Shown here: positions 1 to 31,195 of the stretch, piece by piece | Position numbering within the stretch: the first letter of the stretch is position 1 | How the letters are laid out: each line of letters starts with the position of its first letter | Position numbers and translations under genes: made by a program | Notes under the pieces: generated by a model | The model's input: only the letters and a program-made list of their open reading frames with translations | What the model was told of the DNA's origin: nothing | Databases searched by the model: none | Source: Candidatus Nanohalalkaliarchaeum halalkaliphilum | GTDB lineage: Archaea > Nanohalarchaeota > Nanosalinia > Nanosalinales > Nanohalalkaliarchaeaceae | Assembly: GCA_022729315.1 (NCBI GenBank) | Contig: JALDAF010000003.1 | Location: 1-41,719 of the forward strand | DNA length: 41,719 nucleotides | Direction: 5' to 3'

Positions 1-2173
1 CGAACCGGAACCGGACCCGTACCTTGTCCGTGGCATAGTCGGAAACATCGATCGTCTCGTTCTGCCATCCCTCTGTTTCTCCCTGGTATTGTTCCAGTTC
101 ATCCCAGCCTGTCCCATCATCGATCTCTACGTATACATCATCATTATTCTGGACTTCAAGCCAGTGGGAATACGACAGTTCTGGGTCACTCACGTTGGAC
201 AGGTCGATCGGTGGCGTGACCAGGCTGCCGTTCTCCCGGTGCCCTGTCGCGTACCGGTACTCCTCCTCCAGTCCGAAGTACCATGCCATACCCTCCGACA
301 GGTACCGGTTATCGGTCCGGTACCACAGCCCGGTTCGTTCCTCCCAGACACCGAGATACGTGTCCCAGTATATGCCGGTACCGTTCGCTGAGGAGGTATG
401 GATACGTTCCCCGTTCAGGTAGATCGTGGCGTTCCCCGCGTACCGGAAGTACGGGTGAGGATTGAAGAAGTCGTCAGGATCATAATCGAACGTCTTCCGG
501 AACCGGAACACGTCTGTGTCCTCGTCTCCAGCCTGTGTAACCGCATTGCCGCCGTATCCGAGTGGTGCTGTACCGCTACTCCAGTTCCCATCATCGTATG
601 CCGGATCCATCCAGTCCCCGTCCACATCGGACACGTTGTACCGCCACGTACCCTGTTCTGCGAATACGGTATGGTGGATCGGCCGGGTTATCAACGTGTT
701 CAACCCTTTCAGGATACCGCAACCCACACAGGTTCCACCGCCAGCCCGGTAGTCTTCGATCGTCTCATGCAGCGTCTCATTATCATGTGTTAACCGTTCC
801 CGTTCCACGATGAAGTCGTTGAACGCGTTCAGTCCACCACGGGCATCCGGCGTATCCATGATGACGTCCACGAACGTGTGGGTACCGTCCCGGGCCTCAT
901 CGATCTTCCCGTGGCTGGACATGGAACCCGCAACAGATGTCGCGGCCACGGCATCGATCGCTCCGGCTTCTCCCTGCAGTAAGCTTTCATGTTCAACACC
1001 GACACGGTACGGCGTGGTCTGCCCGCTTAACTGTGCATAGGAAAGTCCTGCCTCCGTCACGTTCCCATGTATCGTATCGTTCGTCAGGTCGACCGTGGTA
1101 TGCCCGTCGGCCTCTGCTTCGTATACGGTGGCGTTCCCGATGGATACAAAGATTGTGCCGACATCCGCAGTATAGTTCAGGAAGCCCTCCACCCCCTGTA
1201 ACGTTCCAGGCACGTGGAACGCGGAGTACAGGTTGATCACACCGTCGATCCCCGGAAGCCGCTCATGGTCGATATGATGGTCTCCCCGTGCAACAGCACC
1301 AGTCGTCTTATTATGTTTGATATTCACGAACCCGCCGCTGACACTGCTTCGGTTCTGCCAGGCGAACTCGAACCGGATCAGGTTGTCACCGTCCTCCAGT
1401 GCGTCACACCGCTCCGGGTGTACCTCGGTGGAGCAGATGTGGAACTCGTCCGCACTCAGATTTCCGGTATCTGGCGCGTACGTCCCGGATTCCACGTCGT
1501 TGATCTTCAGATCAAATTCTCCTGCAAAATCGCCTTCGACCGTAATGTTCTGTACCGTGTCCAGATCTGGGAGGGATGCGTTCAGTGTCAGGTTTCCGTC
1601 CCCAACGTATCCACCGAAACACAGGTTCTTCTCATCGAACGCGGTTGCCTCTGTTAACTGGGCGCGGGCGATGTGTCCTGCGGTCGGCTGATCCCGTGAT
1701 ACACCGGATATCATCCGGGTTGCCCGGGACACCATCGCCTGGTCCGCTGCAAGGAGGCTGGTGTTGTACACGGGGGAGATCTCACCGTCATCCATCGTCA
1801 CCCGGTACTCGTACCCGTCCGGTATGATCGTGTCGAAGAACATCCGCGTCAGGTTTTGCGCCTCAGCCGTTTCGTTGGACGCCCACAGCACAGCGATCGC
1901 ATCAAGCACCGGCTTGTCAAGGTCTGCCTCCTCCATCTCTGTCTGTTCCACGAAATAAACCTGCTCATCCACAGTCAGCATATCCCGGGCGTGTTGCCGG
2001 GACGCCACCTGCATCGCGCTTTCAGCAGTGGCATCGGCCTCGACGGATTCCTGGGTTGTCGCAGCCAGTTCATGCATGGTCTGCGGGTTAGCGGTGAGGA
2101 TAAGCGCGAACGCAACCGAAATCAGCGTCAATGCCATAACCGCGTCAAATGAGAAGTAGAATCCCTTCCTCAT
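1..2173 (-). CDS. Large pilin-like/cell-surface protein, C-terminus beyond the window edge
   Basis: The frame is open from ATG 2173 to the window edge, about 724 codons. The N-terminus is basic (MRKGFYF) then FSFDAVMALTLISVAFALIL, a class III pilin-like hydrophobic helix with an acidic residue near its start. The body has many N-x-S/T sequons and a few paired Cys. Around residues 500-580 is a region like a galactose-binding jelly roll (WMDPAYDDGNW, then GYGG), and the last part (SYSHWLEVQNNDDVYVEID) resembles a lectin/glucanase-like beta sandwich. Its ATG overlaps the stop of the upstream gene by four bases, so it is the last visible gene of a pilin-like operon. Likely an extracellular adhesin or tip protein (inference). 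Domain names are by eye; the C-terminus is not visible. Confidence 0.8.
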   Translation of the reverse strand, partial: MRKGFYFSFDAVMALTLISVAFALILTANPQTMHELAATTQESVEADATAESAMQVASRQHARDMLTVDEQVYFVEQTEMEEADLDKPVLDAIAVLWASNETAEAQNLTRMFFDTIIPDGYEYRVTMDDGEISPVYNTSLLAADQAMVSRATRMISGVSRDQPTAGHIARAQLTEATAFDEKNLCFGGYVGDGNLTLNASLPDLDTVQNITVEGDFAGEFDLKINDVESGTYAPDTGNLSADEFHICSTEVHPERCDALEDGDNLIRFEFAWQNRSSVSGGFVNIKHNKTTGAVARGDHHIDHERLPGIDGVINLYSAFHVPGTLQGVEGFLNYTADVGTIFVSIGNATVYEAEADGHTTVDLTNDTIHGNVTEAGLSYAQLSGQTTPYRVGVEHESLLQGEAGAIDAVAATSVAGSMSSHGKIDEARDGTHTFVDVIMDTPDARGGLNAFNDFIVERERLTHDNETLHETIEDYRAGGGTCVGCGILKGLNTLITRPIHHTVFAEQGTWRYNVSDVDGDWMDPAYDDGNWSSGTAPLGYGGNAVTQAGDEDTDVFRFRKTFDYDPDDFFNPHPYFRYAGNATIYLNGERIHTSSANGTGIYWDTYLGVWEERTGLWYRTDNRYLSEGMAWYFGLEEEYRYATGHRENGSLVTPPIDLSNVSDPELSYSHWLEVQNNDDVYVEIDDGTGWDELEQYQGETEGWQNETIDVSDYATDKVRVRFRF

Positions 2174-28409: not shown

Positions 28410-30215
28410 TCAACCCAGTTTCCACCGCGGATCCTGCTTATCCTTGATCTCCACGATATCCTCCAGCACCTGCAGTTCGCCGGCTGTGAACGCGTCCTCC
28501 ATCCGCCGGATAATCCTGTAATCCTTGCTGGACAGGTCGGTGTACAGTTCGTCACCCTCCTCCACCTGCCGGCCGATCGTGATACTGGTGATGGACACGG
28601 CGACCTCATCCCCTTTCGTTGCAGAATCGATGCTGTCACCTTCCTCCTGGATGGATTTGACCCTGCCTCGTTTCTCCCCGTTCCCATCCATCAATGCAGA
28701 TCCCGTGTTCAGCACACCGTCAAGGATCTCCACGCCGACAACGGCAGGATCCGAGCTGCGGAACACGTGATCCGGCATCAACCGGATCTTCGCTGGCCGG
28801 GTAATATTCTGCATGACGGCCTCCCGCTGCTGTACTTCCAGTTCCTGCACCATCTCCTCGTACCGATCCACGAGATCGTAGATGATGTCGCTCTGTATAT
28901 AGGTGATATCCGTGTTCTCCAGCTGCTGCGCTGCCGTATCCGTGGCCCCGGTGTTGAACGCGAGAACGGTCTGGTGTTTCCGTTCCTCTTCCTGTGTCGC
29001 CTCGATCACGTCCTTCTTTGTCACCTGTCCGACCTCTGCATGTTTCACCGGAATATCCTTCTCCTGCAGCACATCCATCACCGCCTCCAGACTTCCAAGG
29101 GAATCCGCACGGACGATGATACCGGAGGTCGCGGTCGGGAACTCGAACGCCTCCAGTTCCGCCGCAACCTCTTCCACCGCCTCCTGTACGGCATCCTCGT
29201 CGGATCCGTCCACGGCACGGACCGGGACCCCAGCTGTCACGTCATCGATACCGGGCGCCGCGATCTTGATACCGGCCGCCGCCGTGACTGCTTCGATAGA
29301 CTGGAAATCACGTTCCGTCCGGATCTCGCTGAGCGGGGACGGCTCCAGTAATGCTTTTATCGACGTTACGACCGGCTCCTGCCGGCTGCCGATGACAAGC
29401 GTATCGGTTTTATGGAGTACTCCGTTGTACAGTATCACATCAAGCGTCGTACCGAACCCTTTCACCTCGTTCACTTCAAGCACGGTTCCTTCCGCACCCT
29501 CAGGATGCATCTCCAGCCGGTCGGACAGGTAGCGCTGTGCCAGCCCGGAGATCACCATCAGCAGGTCGGGGATGCCCTCTCCCGTCTCGGCGGAGATCGG
29601 GACCACACCGATCTTGTCCGTGAAATCGTCCACACGGTCGTACCGGTCAACGGTGAACCCGAGGTCGGAGAACTCTGCCATCAGTTCGTAAATGGTTTCA
29701 TCCAGCTGTTTCTGCAACCGTTCACCCTGGTTCCGGTAGTTCAACAGAAAGCTGCCTTCACTGCTCTTCCATCCCCGCATCGTATCGATCTTGTTTAACG
29801 CGACGACAAACGGTGTCCCGGATTCTTTCAGGATATCGATCGCCTCCCTTGTCTGCGGCTGCACCCCGTTCGACACATCCACGACCACCACCGCGATGTC
29901 GGAGAGTGACCCGCCCCGTTTCCGCAGTGATGCGAACGCAGCGTGACCGGGCGTGTCAATGAACAGCAGGCCCGGTATTTGCAGTTCCGTCCCGAGTTCT
30001 TCCAGCAAATCCCCGCTCAGTTCCTCTATTTTATCGATCGGTACGGAGGTAGAACCGATCATCTGGGTGATGCCGCCGGACTCCTTCTCTGCCAGTACCG
30101 ATCCACGGATATGGTCAAGAAGTGTCGTCTTTCCTGCATCAACATGTCCAAGAACAGAGATGATCGGCTGCCTGATGCGCTGTTTCGTGTCCTGCTGCTG
30201 TTCTGCGTCTTCCAT
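28410..30215 (-). CDS. infB: Translation initiation factor aIF5B (IF2-type)
   Basis: 601 residues, usual archaeal length. GTPase promoting ribosomal subunit joining. G1 VLGHVDAGKTTLLD, switch I GGITQMIGSTSVP, DTPGHAAF, ALNKID, SAETGEG, then beta-barrel and tail ending RRMEDAFTAGELQVLEDIVEIKDKQDPRWKLG (partial recognition). ATG 30215 is preferred to GTG 30224 (GGTGG just upstream). A separate promoter (TTTATAAAG, about 30265-30274) gives a leader of about 27 bases. It follows the ribosomal protein operon. Confidence 0.96.
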   Translation of the reverse strand: MEDAEQQQDTKQRIRQPIISVLGHVDAGKTTLLDHIRGSVLAEKESGGITQMIGSTSVPIDKIEELSGDLLEELGTELQIPGLLFIDTPGHAAFASLRKRGGSLSDIAVVVVDVSNGVQPQTREAIDILKESGTPFVVALNKIDTMRGWKSSEGSFLLNYRNQGERLQKQLDETIYELMAEFSDLGFTVDRYDRVDDFTDKIGVVPISAETGEGIPDLLMVISGLAQRYLSDRLEMHPEGAEGTVLEVNEVKGFGTTLDVILYNGVLHKTDTLVIGSRQEPVVTSIKALLEPSPLSEIRTERDFQSIEAVTAAAGIKIAAPGIDDVTAGVPVRAVDGSDEDAVQEAVEEVAAELEAFEFPTATSGIIVRADSLGSLEAVMDVLQEKDIPVKHAEVGQVTKKDVIEATQEEERKHQTVLAFNTGATDTAAQQLENTDITYIQSDIIYDLVDRYEEMVQELEVQQREAVMQNITRPAKIRLMPDHVFRSSDPAVVGVEILDGVLNTGSALMDGNGEKRGRVKSIQEEGDSIDSATKGDEVAVSITSITIGRQVEEGDELYTDLSSKDYRIIRRMEDAFTAGELQVLEDIVEIKDKQDPRWKLG

Positions 30216-30340
30216 GAGAACCACCGCTAATGACCGCGTTCACAGAGAAACACGTCATAAAGAGCTTTATAAACGTATTATGTGGCGCGGTGAGGGGATG
30301 GTGAACACATCCCTGGAATCGCACCATTCATGAATGTTCA

Positions 30341-30493
30341 TCAATTATGTTCTGCGTACTGCAGGTTCCTGCCTTTCTCCCAGTTCTTCTGGCACTTCGC
30401 CGAGCAGAAATGATGCCGTGTGCCATCTGCCTGGATGAACAGCTTCCCACCGGTCTTCTCCAGTGTGTCTCCACAGTACGTACAATCTGTCAT
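30341..30493 (-). CDS. rpl24e: 50S ribosomal protein eL24
   Basis: 50 residues, too short for the longer frames but unmistakable: MTDCTYCGDTLEKTGGKLFI start, zinc ligands CTYC (4-7) and the second pair CSAKC (30-34), with RHHFC and QKNWEKGRN, ending YAEHN. The stop codon TGA is at 30343-30341. Third gene of the L7Ae-S28e-L24e operon. The 79-base gap before it carries two hairpins. Confidence 0.95.
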   Translation of the reverse strand: MTDCTYCGDTLEKTGGKLFIQADGTRHHFCSAKCQKNWEKGRNLQYAEHN

Positions 30494-30572: not shown

Positions 30573-30752
30573 TCAGCCCTCCATTTCTGTTTCCTGGAGG
30601 ATGAGGATATCCTGTTCGCGTACCGGGCCCATCACGTCACGGACAAGGATCTTCCCCTTGTCGTTACCTTCAACGATCTTGCAGCGGACCTTCTGCACGC
30701 CTCTGTGTCCTGTCTTTCCAAGTACCTGAATGACTTCTGCTGGTACGCCCAT
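30573..30752 (-). CDS. rps28e: 30S ribosomal protein eS28
   Basis: 59 residues, [20 protein letters not shown] start and the C-terminal [20 protein letters not shown], matching the family over full length. Second gene of the operon; its start is 13 bases after the L7Ae stop. Binds near the decoding centre/exit on the small subunit. Confidence 0.96.
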
Positions 30753-30765
30753 TGGTTACACCTTG

Positions 30766-31125
30766 TTACGCGAGTTCCTCGACCTTGGTAGCGATGTCCT
30801 TAACATCGTCGCCTGCTGATCCGGGATCCGTGATTGCGACGGCACTGGTACGGACGTTGAGTCCTGCTGCAAGTCCCAGTTCATCTTTCTCCGGGACGAA
30901 CGTGTATGCGATACCGTTCTCCTCACAGAGTGCAGGGAGATGCATCACGATCTCAGGGGGTTCAACATCACCAGCGATCACAACGAGATCTGCCTCTGCG
31001 CGTTCGATCGCTTTTGTCACTTCGTTTGTACCTTTCCGGATCTTTCCTGTATCACGCGCCCGTTCCACGGCATTGTAAGTGCTCTCTGCCAGGGAGTCAG
31101 GAACGTCAAACTGTGCGTAGCTCAT
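30766..31125 (-). CDS. rpl7ae: Ribosomal protein eL8/L7Ae
   Basis: 119 residues; [30 protein letters not shown] identifies L7Ae. It binds kink-turns in 23S rRNA, box C/D and H/ACA guide RNAs and RNase P RNA. First gene of the operon. The TATA element at 31181-31195 gives a leader of about 33 bases with a kink-turn-like loop overlapping the ribosome binding site GAGGTGG, suggesting self-regulation. Confidence 0.96.
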
Positions 31126-31129
31126 ATCT

Positions 31130-31154
31130 TTCCACCTCGTATCATCGGCTTGAA
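31130..31154 (-). promoter_or_regulatory. Kink-loop-like element in the L7Ae leader overlapping the ribosome binding site
   Basis: The mRNA reads GCC-GAU-GA-UAC-GA-GGU: three-base bulge GAU, tandem sheared G-A pairs (GA/GA), stem GCC/GGU and outer UUC/GAA. The second GA and the GGU are part of the binding site GAGGUGG, five bases before AUG. L7Ae binding would hide it. Kink-turns in L7Ae leaders are known in some archaea. Confidence 0.5.
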
Positions 31155-31180
31155 CAACTGTGTTCGATTAAGCATACACT

Positions 31181-31195
31181 ATTAAATTTATAAAT
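31181..31195 (-). promoter_or_regulatory. TATA box of the L7Ae operon
   Basis: Minus-strand ATTTATAAATTTAAT is a strong TATA element; a start about 25 bases on falls near 31158, just ahead of the kink-loop element. Confidence 0.6.

Follow-up and report, generated by a model that had tools for sequence, protein, structure and literature searches.

A compact kink-turn-like element overlapping the ribosome binding site of a nanohalarchaeal L7Ae gene, a putative operator of L7Ae autoregulation

Does the L7Ae gene of Candidatus Nanohalalkaliarchaeum halalkaliphilum carry, directly before its start codon, an RNA structure through which the protein could control its own synthesis? The question arose from an earlier note on the window (the whole stretch of 41,719 nucleotides analysed here), which described a compact kink-loop just before the L7Ae AUG with its second half inside the ribosome binding site, and proposed it as a self-regulating switch for a whole operon. 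The genome it comes from (1.13 Mb, 76% complete) groups with Candidatus Nanohalarchaeota, and the named collection places QJJ-7 and QJJ-5 closest to it, with L7Ae identities of 77% and 68%, respectively.

The note had also stated that kink-turns (k-turns) occur in the L7Ae leaders of some other archaea, and this is borne out for Sulfolobus acidocaldarius and Archaeoglobus fulgidus (PMC5539422, PMC6298567). Daume et al. (2017) described autoregulation through the leader k-turn of S. acidocaldarius with electrophoretic mobility shift assays and reporters (PMC5539422). For A. fulgidus, Huang, Ashraf and Lilley (2019) reported that the leader k-turn folds in a protein-dependent manner and occludes the Shine-Dalgarno sequence (PMC6298567). 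The yeast L30e mRNA k-turn, mentioned in the same paper, is a further case of an L7Ae-family protein autoregulating through its own mRNA, although it is eukaryotic and acts on splicing too (PMC6298567).

Anatomy of the leader element

On the minus strand, the sequence before the L7Ae gene reads GCCGATGATACGAGGTGGAAAGAT, followed directly by ATG. The 16-nucleotide motif GCC-GAU-GA-UAC-GA-GGU occupies 31149..31134 and ends 8 nucleotides upstream of the start codon; after its GGU come GGAAAGAU and the ATG at 31125 (Table 1). Both the element and the overlap of its second half, GA-GGU, with the Shine-Dalgarno sequence are thus where the earlier note had placed them, within 31126-31160, a span written in the sense of the transcript so that its plus-strand coordinates hide the minus-strand location. 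The C helix before the bulge is present, with three GCC/GGU pairs of which one is G-U, and the three-nucleotide bulge of the GAU type is followed by tandem GA opposite GA. The NC helix, which in a k-turn continues beyond the G-A pairs, is absent: the three nucleotides between the two GA steps leave no room for a further helix.

Table 1. Features of the L7Ae leader and gene cluster (window coordinates)
Feature	Position	Strand	Basis
C-stem, bulged strand GCC	31147..31149	-	sequence, order leader comparison
Three-nucleotide bulge GAU	31144..31146	-	sequence; same bulge in six published leaders
GA of bulged strand (1b, 2b)	31142..31143	-	sequence, order leader comparison
Three-nucleotide loop UAC replacing the NC helix; matches the N-A-N pattern	31139..31141	-	leader comparison
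GA of non-bulged strand (2n, 1n), first two Shine-Dalgarno bases	31137..31138	-	
C-stem, non-bulged strand GGU, within the Shine-Dalgarno sequence	31134..31136	-	
Shine-Dalgarno sequence GAGGUGG	31132..31138	-	
TATA-like box TTTATAAATTTA, -69 from the L7Ae ATG	31183..31194	-	sequence
L7Ae (eL8) gene, 119 amino acids, presumed repressor	30766..31125	-	NCBIfam TIGR03677
S28e gene, second in cluster, own Shine-Dalgarno AAGGTG; family score below cut-off	30573..30752	-	
L24e gene, third in cluster, own Shine-Dalgarno AAGGTG; family score below cut-off	30341..30493	-	
Archaeal translation initiation factor IF-2/IF5B gene, fourth in cluster	28410..30224	-	

The element shares with the S. acidocaldarius leader its gene and place, the GAU bulge, the two G-A pairs, the overlap with the Shine-Dalgarno sequence and the proposed role as an off-switch, but there four base pairs make up the NC stem and one G-C pair the C side, while here the C-stem has three pairs and the NC side none (PMC5539422). 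With the A. fulgidus leader it has in common the GAU bulge, found in all six leaders drawn by Huang et al., and a Shine-Dalgarno sequence that forms part of the C helix; the crystallized A. fulgidus RNA, in contrast, is a duplex with both helices, including an A:U pair at 3b:3n and a pair at 4b:4n that have no counterpart here (PMC6298567). In some of the published leaders only few Watson-Crick pairs follow the G-A pairs (PMC6298567).

The name kink-loop fits in part. The element is compact and resembles a k-turn, but in the strict sense a k-loop is a kink-turn in which stem I, the C stem, is replaced by a loop and stem II is kept (PMC8413462, PMC7994747). Here the arrangement is the reverse, the C stem being present and stem II (NC) replaced, which rules out a classical k-loop of the C'/D' type. 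Both consist of one stem and a loop around the kink core; the k-loops of archaeal C'/D' guide RNAs are bound by archaeal L7Ae. A box C/D guide RNA was also rejected, CCGAUGA and ACGA departing from the consensus RUGAUGA of box C and CUGA of box D. An Rfam scan of the region returned nothing near the gathering score and no k-turn leader family.

Within its own genome the motif is rare. RCCRATGANNNGAGGT occurs once, as the L7Ae leader motif itself, and the wider pattern CCGATGAN{2,20}GAGGTG occurs at three places, one of them the L7Ae leader. Of the other two, one falls within what reads, on inspection by eye, as a ribonucleotide reductase gene, and the second at the end of an open reading frame, right before the next start; both were treated as chance matches because the control pattern gave one match. 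The ribonucleotide reductase gene (G000:C20, minus strand, about 1180..70) itself seems to contain an intein, its reading frame running, by eye, ...NP-CVTGETLIST...ANGLVVHN-CGEQ...

The spacing between TATA box and transcript start in archaea is usually about 25-30 nucleotides. Applied to the TATA-like box, this predicts a start near 31165 (about -40), some 16 nucleotides upstream of the motif, which would therefore lie inside the transcript. Among the 24 motif-bearing leaders of the order, the TATA-like box stands 29-35 nucleotides before the CC of the C-stem in 20; the distance is 44 nucleotides in the window and 41-54 in three others. A perfect five-base-pair hairpin, GAACA-CAGU-UGUUC (31152..31165, minus strand), lies where the leader is predicted to begin and forms in the minimum free energy fold; it may be incidental.

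The gene behind the leader is identified by a TIGR03677 score of 163 bits against a cut-off of 134.6. Its recognition-helix residues Asn34, Glu35, Lys38 and Arg42, invariant in six aligned L7Ae sequences of the order, correspond by motif matching to Asn33, Glu34, Lys37 and Arg41 of A. fulgidus L7Ae, which read the two guanines and the backbone (PMC6298567). The relatives of the protein in the PDB include A. fulgidus entries used for k-turn complexes, for example 4bw0. Loop 9 of L7Ae has been described as tuning k-loop binding; residues 87-94 read GLNVRTSA here and GIEVAAAS in the best PDB match, and these sites vary across the order. Nop5 is encoded in all 13 order genomes tested, so C/D-type ribonucleoproteins that use or compete for L7Ae probably exist; around the Nop5 starts of these 13 genomes, a non-rigorous inspection by eye found no clear motif.

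Conservation in the order and in other phyla

Readable L7Ae leaders were available for 27 genomes of the order, a 28th (G019) having been dropped because its leader is cut by the contig end. The core was defined as a C-stem of at least three pairs, a GAU or AAU bulge, GA, a loop and GA, with the partner strand lying in the Shine-Dalgarno sequence. It is present in 24 of the 27 leaders, against 1.37 expected from shuffling bases -60 to -21 with the Shine-Dalgarno sequence left intact, and at only one of 90 other Shine-Dalgarno-bearing starts in the same loci. The pattern CCTTGATGA..GARAGGT, also written CCTTGATGAN{2,22}GARAGGT, has 17 places in the 27 whole genomes, of which 16, in as many genomes, are L7Ae leaders. 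Conservation of the GA pairs and the bulge in related leaders, the lack of which the earlier note would have taken as refutation, thus holds for most of the order.

The stem differs between families in a telling way. One large family mostly has CCUU before the bulge and [GA]AGG after the second GA; in the other families of the order the bulge is preceded by CC, and GG follows the second GA immediately. Two bases have therefore been gained or lost on both strands together, the change that a paired stem predicts. The three-nucleotide-loop form of the window is also found in a genome of another family (G002), with an AAU bulge. In nine of the 18 leaders of one nanohalarchaeal family (L012, L014, L016, L017, L018, L020, L022, L025 and L026, the last a manual addition because the automatic start finder overlooked it), the sequence CCUUGAUGAYCCAAGG gives CCUUG two possible partners: the nearby downstream CAAGG, which would hide the k-turn strand and leave the Shine-Dalgarno sequence free, or the Shine-Dalgarno sequence itself, as in the k-turn form. 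These leaders look like two-state switches, and the first hairpin (CCUUG/CAAGG) appears in several minimum free energy folds.

Three order leaders, those of G001, G004 and G027, have no core, and they count against a universal need for the element. G001 is the closest relative of the window's genome and belongs to the same family; it lacks the core along with most of the leader. In both G001 and G004 the TATA box lies at about -50, some 20 nucleotides nearer the ATG, so that the element would not fit; the leader of G027 shows no Shine-Dalgarno sequence.

Beyond the order, two phyla hold 31 places that match RCCGATGANNNGAGGT, spread over 12 of the 23 genomes of the first and 19 of the 146 of the second; the control pattern gave two and one matches there. 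Of the 31, 26 lie directly upstream of L7Ae. The pattern has no match in the 19 genomes of a third phylum, which includes a candidate with a two-nucleotide loop (G035), and in a fourth phylum RCCRATGANNNGAGGT has three matches in 34 genomes, none at L7Ae. G003 has an extra match of the three-nucleotide form away from L7Ae. The L7Ae leader of G035 (L037), GAGGC-AAAA-GCC-GAUGA-UU-GA-GGU, offers two overlapping k-turn options, one of which hides the Shine-Dalgarno sequence and the other does not.

With any loop length allowed, a core paired into the Shine-Dalgarno sequence is found in 71 of 141 (3.4 expected) and 14 of 20 (1.9 expected) obtainable L7Ae leaders of the second and first of these phyla, respectively. 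Left out of the leader counts were L094 and L119, for which no leader was found, G192, whose match starts at base 32 of its contig, and the genomes without an L7Ae match (4 of 146 and 3 of 23); the core of L027 as first counted is an alternative pairing, its ACC form being confirmed separately. Among the leaders of the larger phylum, 37 have a loop of three nucleotides and 33 one of six or more, with a single two-nucleotide loop and none of one, four or five. Several of the longer loops can, by eye, pair into an NC stem. In the smaller phylum the loop has three nucleotides in 12 leaders, five in one and six in one. Seven Heimdallarchaeota L7Ae leaders (L096, L099, L105, L111, L113, L114 and L137) read AUACC-UAAU-GA-AGGCAC...GUGCC-(C/U)-GA-GGU or similar; by eye they look like a k-turn in which the bulge has four nucleotides and a long NC stem lies over the Shine-Dalgarno sequence.

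When the start distance is relaxed by one base, the three-nucleotide form is present in 53 of 188 leaders (2 of 27 in the order, 39 of 141 and 12 of 20 in the two phyla). The first and third loop bases vary, while A occupies the middle position in 52 of the 53, compared with 46 of 128 copies of [GA]AUGANNNGA anywhere in 110 loci. Near L7Ae starts, 54 of 60 copies of [GA]AUGANNNGA, chosen without selection on pairing, are flanked by three pairs, versus 8 of 128 anywhere in the 110 loci, a figure that by construction includes the window's own copy and that of G002.

As to covariation, which the earlier note had named as a check, the two-sided change in stem length within the order speaks for a paired stem, but base-pair covariation in the three-nucleotide class is weak. 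In the 43 distinct rows of this class, which were chosen for pairing, the CC/GG pairs are invariant and the third pair is A-U or G-U, and pairing at the next three positions of an extended C-stem is no stronger than in shuffled data (the score is reached in 99 of 500 shuffles). The weakness follows from the first three pairs being tied to the Shine-Dalgarno sequence and the further pairs not rising above shuffles. Under a laxer rule, the first pair among 131 best pairings is C-G in 86, G-C in 22, U-A in 10, U-G in eight, A-U in four and G-U in one. The structural case accordingly rests on the joint conservation of the core, the two-sided change in stem length and the varied stems of the long-loop leaders.

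Proposed regulation and competing explanations

The sequence, position and conservation of the element, its complementarity to the Shine-Dalgarno sequence and the conserved residues of the protein make it very probable that the element is the RNA operator of a negative-feedback loop of L7Ae. We infer that the RNA kinks, that L7Ae binds the leader and that translation then falls; by analogy, the mechanism is the L7Ae autoregulation through a leader k-turn already known elsewhere. Free L7Ae in excess of its rRNA and guide-RNA sites would bind the leader and fix GCC/GGU as the C-stem, with GAU bulged and the two G-A pairs sheared. The kinked core would bury the Shine-Dalgarno sequence and stop L7Ae translation. 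In the absence of L7Ae, the three-base-pair hairpin would be marginal (the isolated hairpin has a calculated free energy of only -1.6 kcal/mol), leaving the Shine-Dalgarno sequence accessible part of the time for a ribosome to start, as a protein-dependent switch would need. In the published folding rules, a C:G pair at -1b:-1n is linked to ion-induced folding (PMC6298567). The window motif has C:G at this position, and a fraction of the RNA may therefore adopt its fold in a salt-rich cytoplasm even when L7Ae is not bound.

Extending this control to the whole operon, as the earlier note did, is unsupported. The S28e start lies 13 nucleotides past the L7Ae stop codon, and both S28e and L24e carry a Shine-Dalgarno sequence AAGGTG of their own; control of the downstream genes would be an extra assumption.

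The strongest competitor is a hairpin that is not kinked, in which the C-stem would be continued by tandem G.A/A.G pairs (GAU with NGA) and a U.N pair and closed by a GANA tetraloop, and which would either hide the Shine-Dalgarno sequence unaided or represent an unbound state, L7Ae then selecting the kinked form from it. Such a fold would account for the middle loop A in 52 of 53 leaders, as the last base of a GNNA loop, and for loops of three rather than four or five nucleotides. The U.N pair it requires is U-A or U-G in only nine of 43 distinct rows, though, and many rows have AAU, which turns the first G.A into A.A. Long-loop leaders of the same phylum with paired NC stems, moreover, keep the [GA]AUGA/GA core, which only a k-turn explains. 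We regard the non-kinked hairpin as improbable.

Plain sequestration of the Shine-Dalgarno sequence, or a hairpin sensitive to temperature or salt in which L7Ae plays no role, would fit the complementary C-stem strand and the marginal fold. It would not lead one to expect that GAU or AAU and both GA steps persist through changes in loop length and stem sequence, a conservation of the core and not of mere complementarity, nor that the element keeps to the gene of the one k-turn-reading protein (26 of 31 and 16 of 17 places), and we consider this reading very improbable. Since GA-rich Shine-Dalgarno sequences make GA steps common and the motif is short, a chance resemblance in a purine-rich ribosome binding site also has to be weighed; the 24 of 27 leaders against 1.37 expected with the Shine-Dalgarno sequence kept, and the single hit among 90 control starts, refute it for the group and make it scarcely credible. 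A role of L7Ae as the reader of its own leader is the preferred reading. The observation in the earlier note was right and its interpretation mostly so, the anatomy being an undersized, recurrent variant of a known switch.

A capped kink core and its implications

Judged by its sequence, this anatomy is distinctive in that the NC helix is absent and a single three-nucleotide loop bridges the two GA steps. We found no description of a C stem combined with the lack of any NC pair and a fixed N-A-N loop of three nucleotides in the literature searched, where single cases may stand in the figures or supplements of Daume et al. (2017) and Huang et al. (2019). It is an evenly balanced proposition that these leaders form a distinct class of putative L7Ae-binding RNA: a 16-nucleotide hairpin, R-C-C-[GA]-A-U-G-A-N-A-N-G-A-G-G-U, in which a three-nucleotide N-A-N loop takes the place of the entire NC helix and caps two sheared G-A pairs. 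At least three archaeal phyla would use it as the operator with which L7Ae regulates itself, and its central A would have a specific structural or protein-contact job. Possible roles for that A are a contact with L7Ae, stacking on the A-G pair and closure of a GANA tetraloop in the free state, the last being weakened by the poor support for the U.N pair that it requires.

If the class is real, it would mirror the k-loop and be, to our knowledge, the smallest natural L7Ae operator. It poses a structural question, namely how two sheared G-A pairs capped by a triloop could still be read by L7Ae, and L7Ae-based switches would gain an RNA part of very small size. The two stems of the k-turn would become separable in role: k-loops show that the C stem is dispensable, and these leaders suggest that the NC stem is dispensable too. 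Nature would have dropped the NC helix repeatedly while keeping exactly three loop bases with a central A. For the organisms themselves, the element would extend feedback control of L7Ae to the Nanohalarchaeota and, judging from sequence, to another two archaeal phyla.
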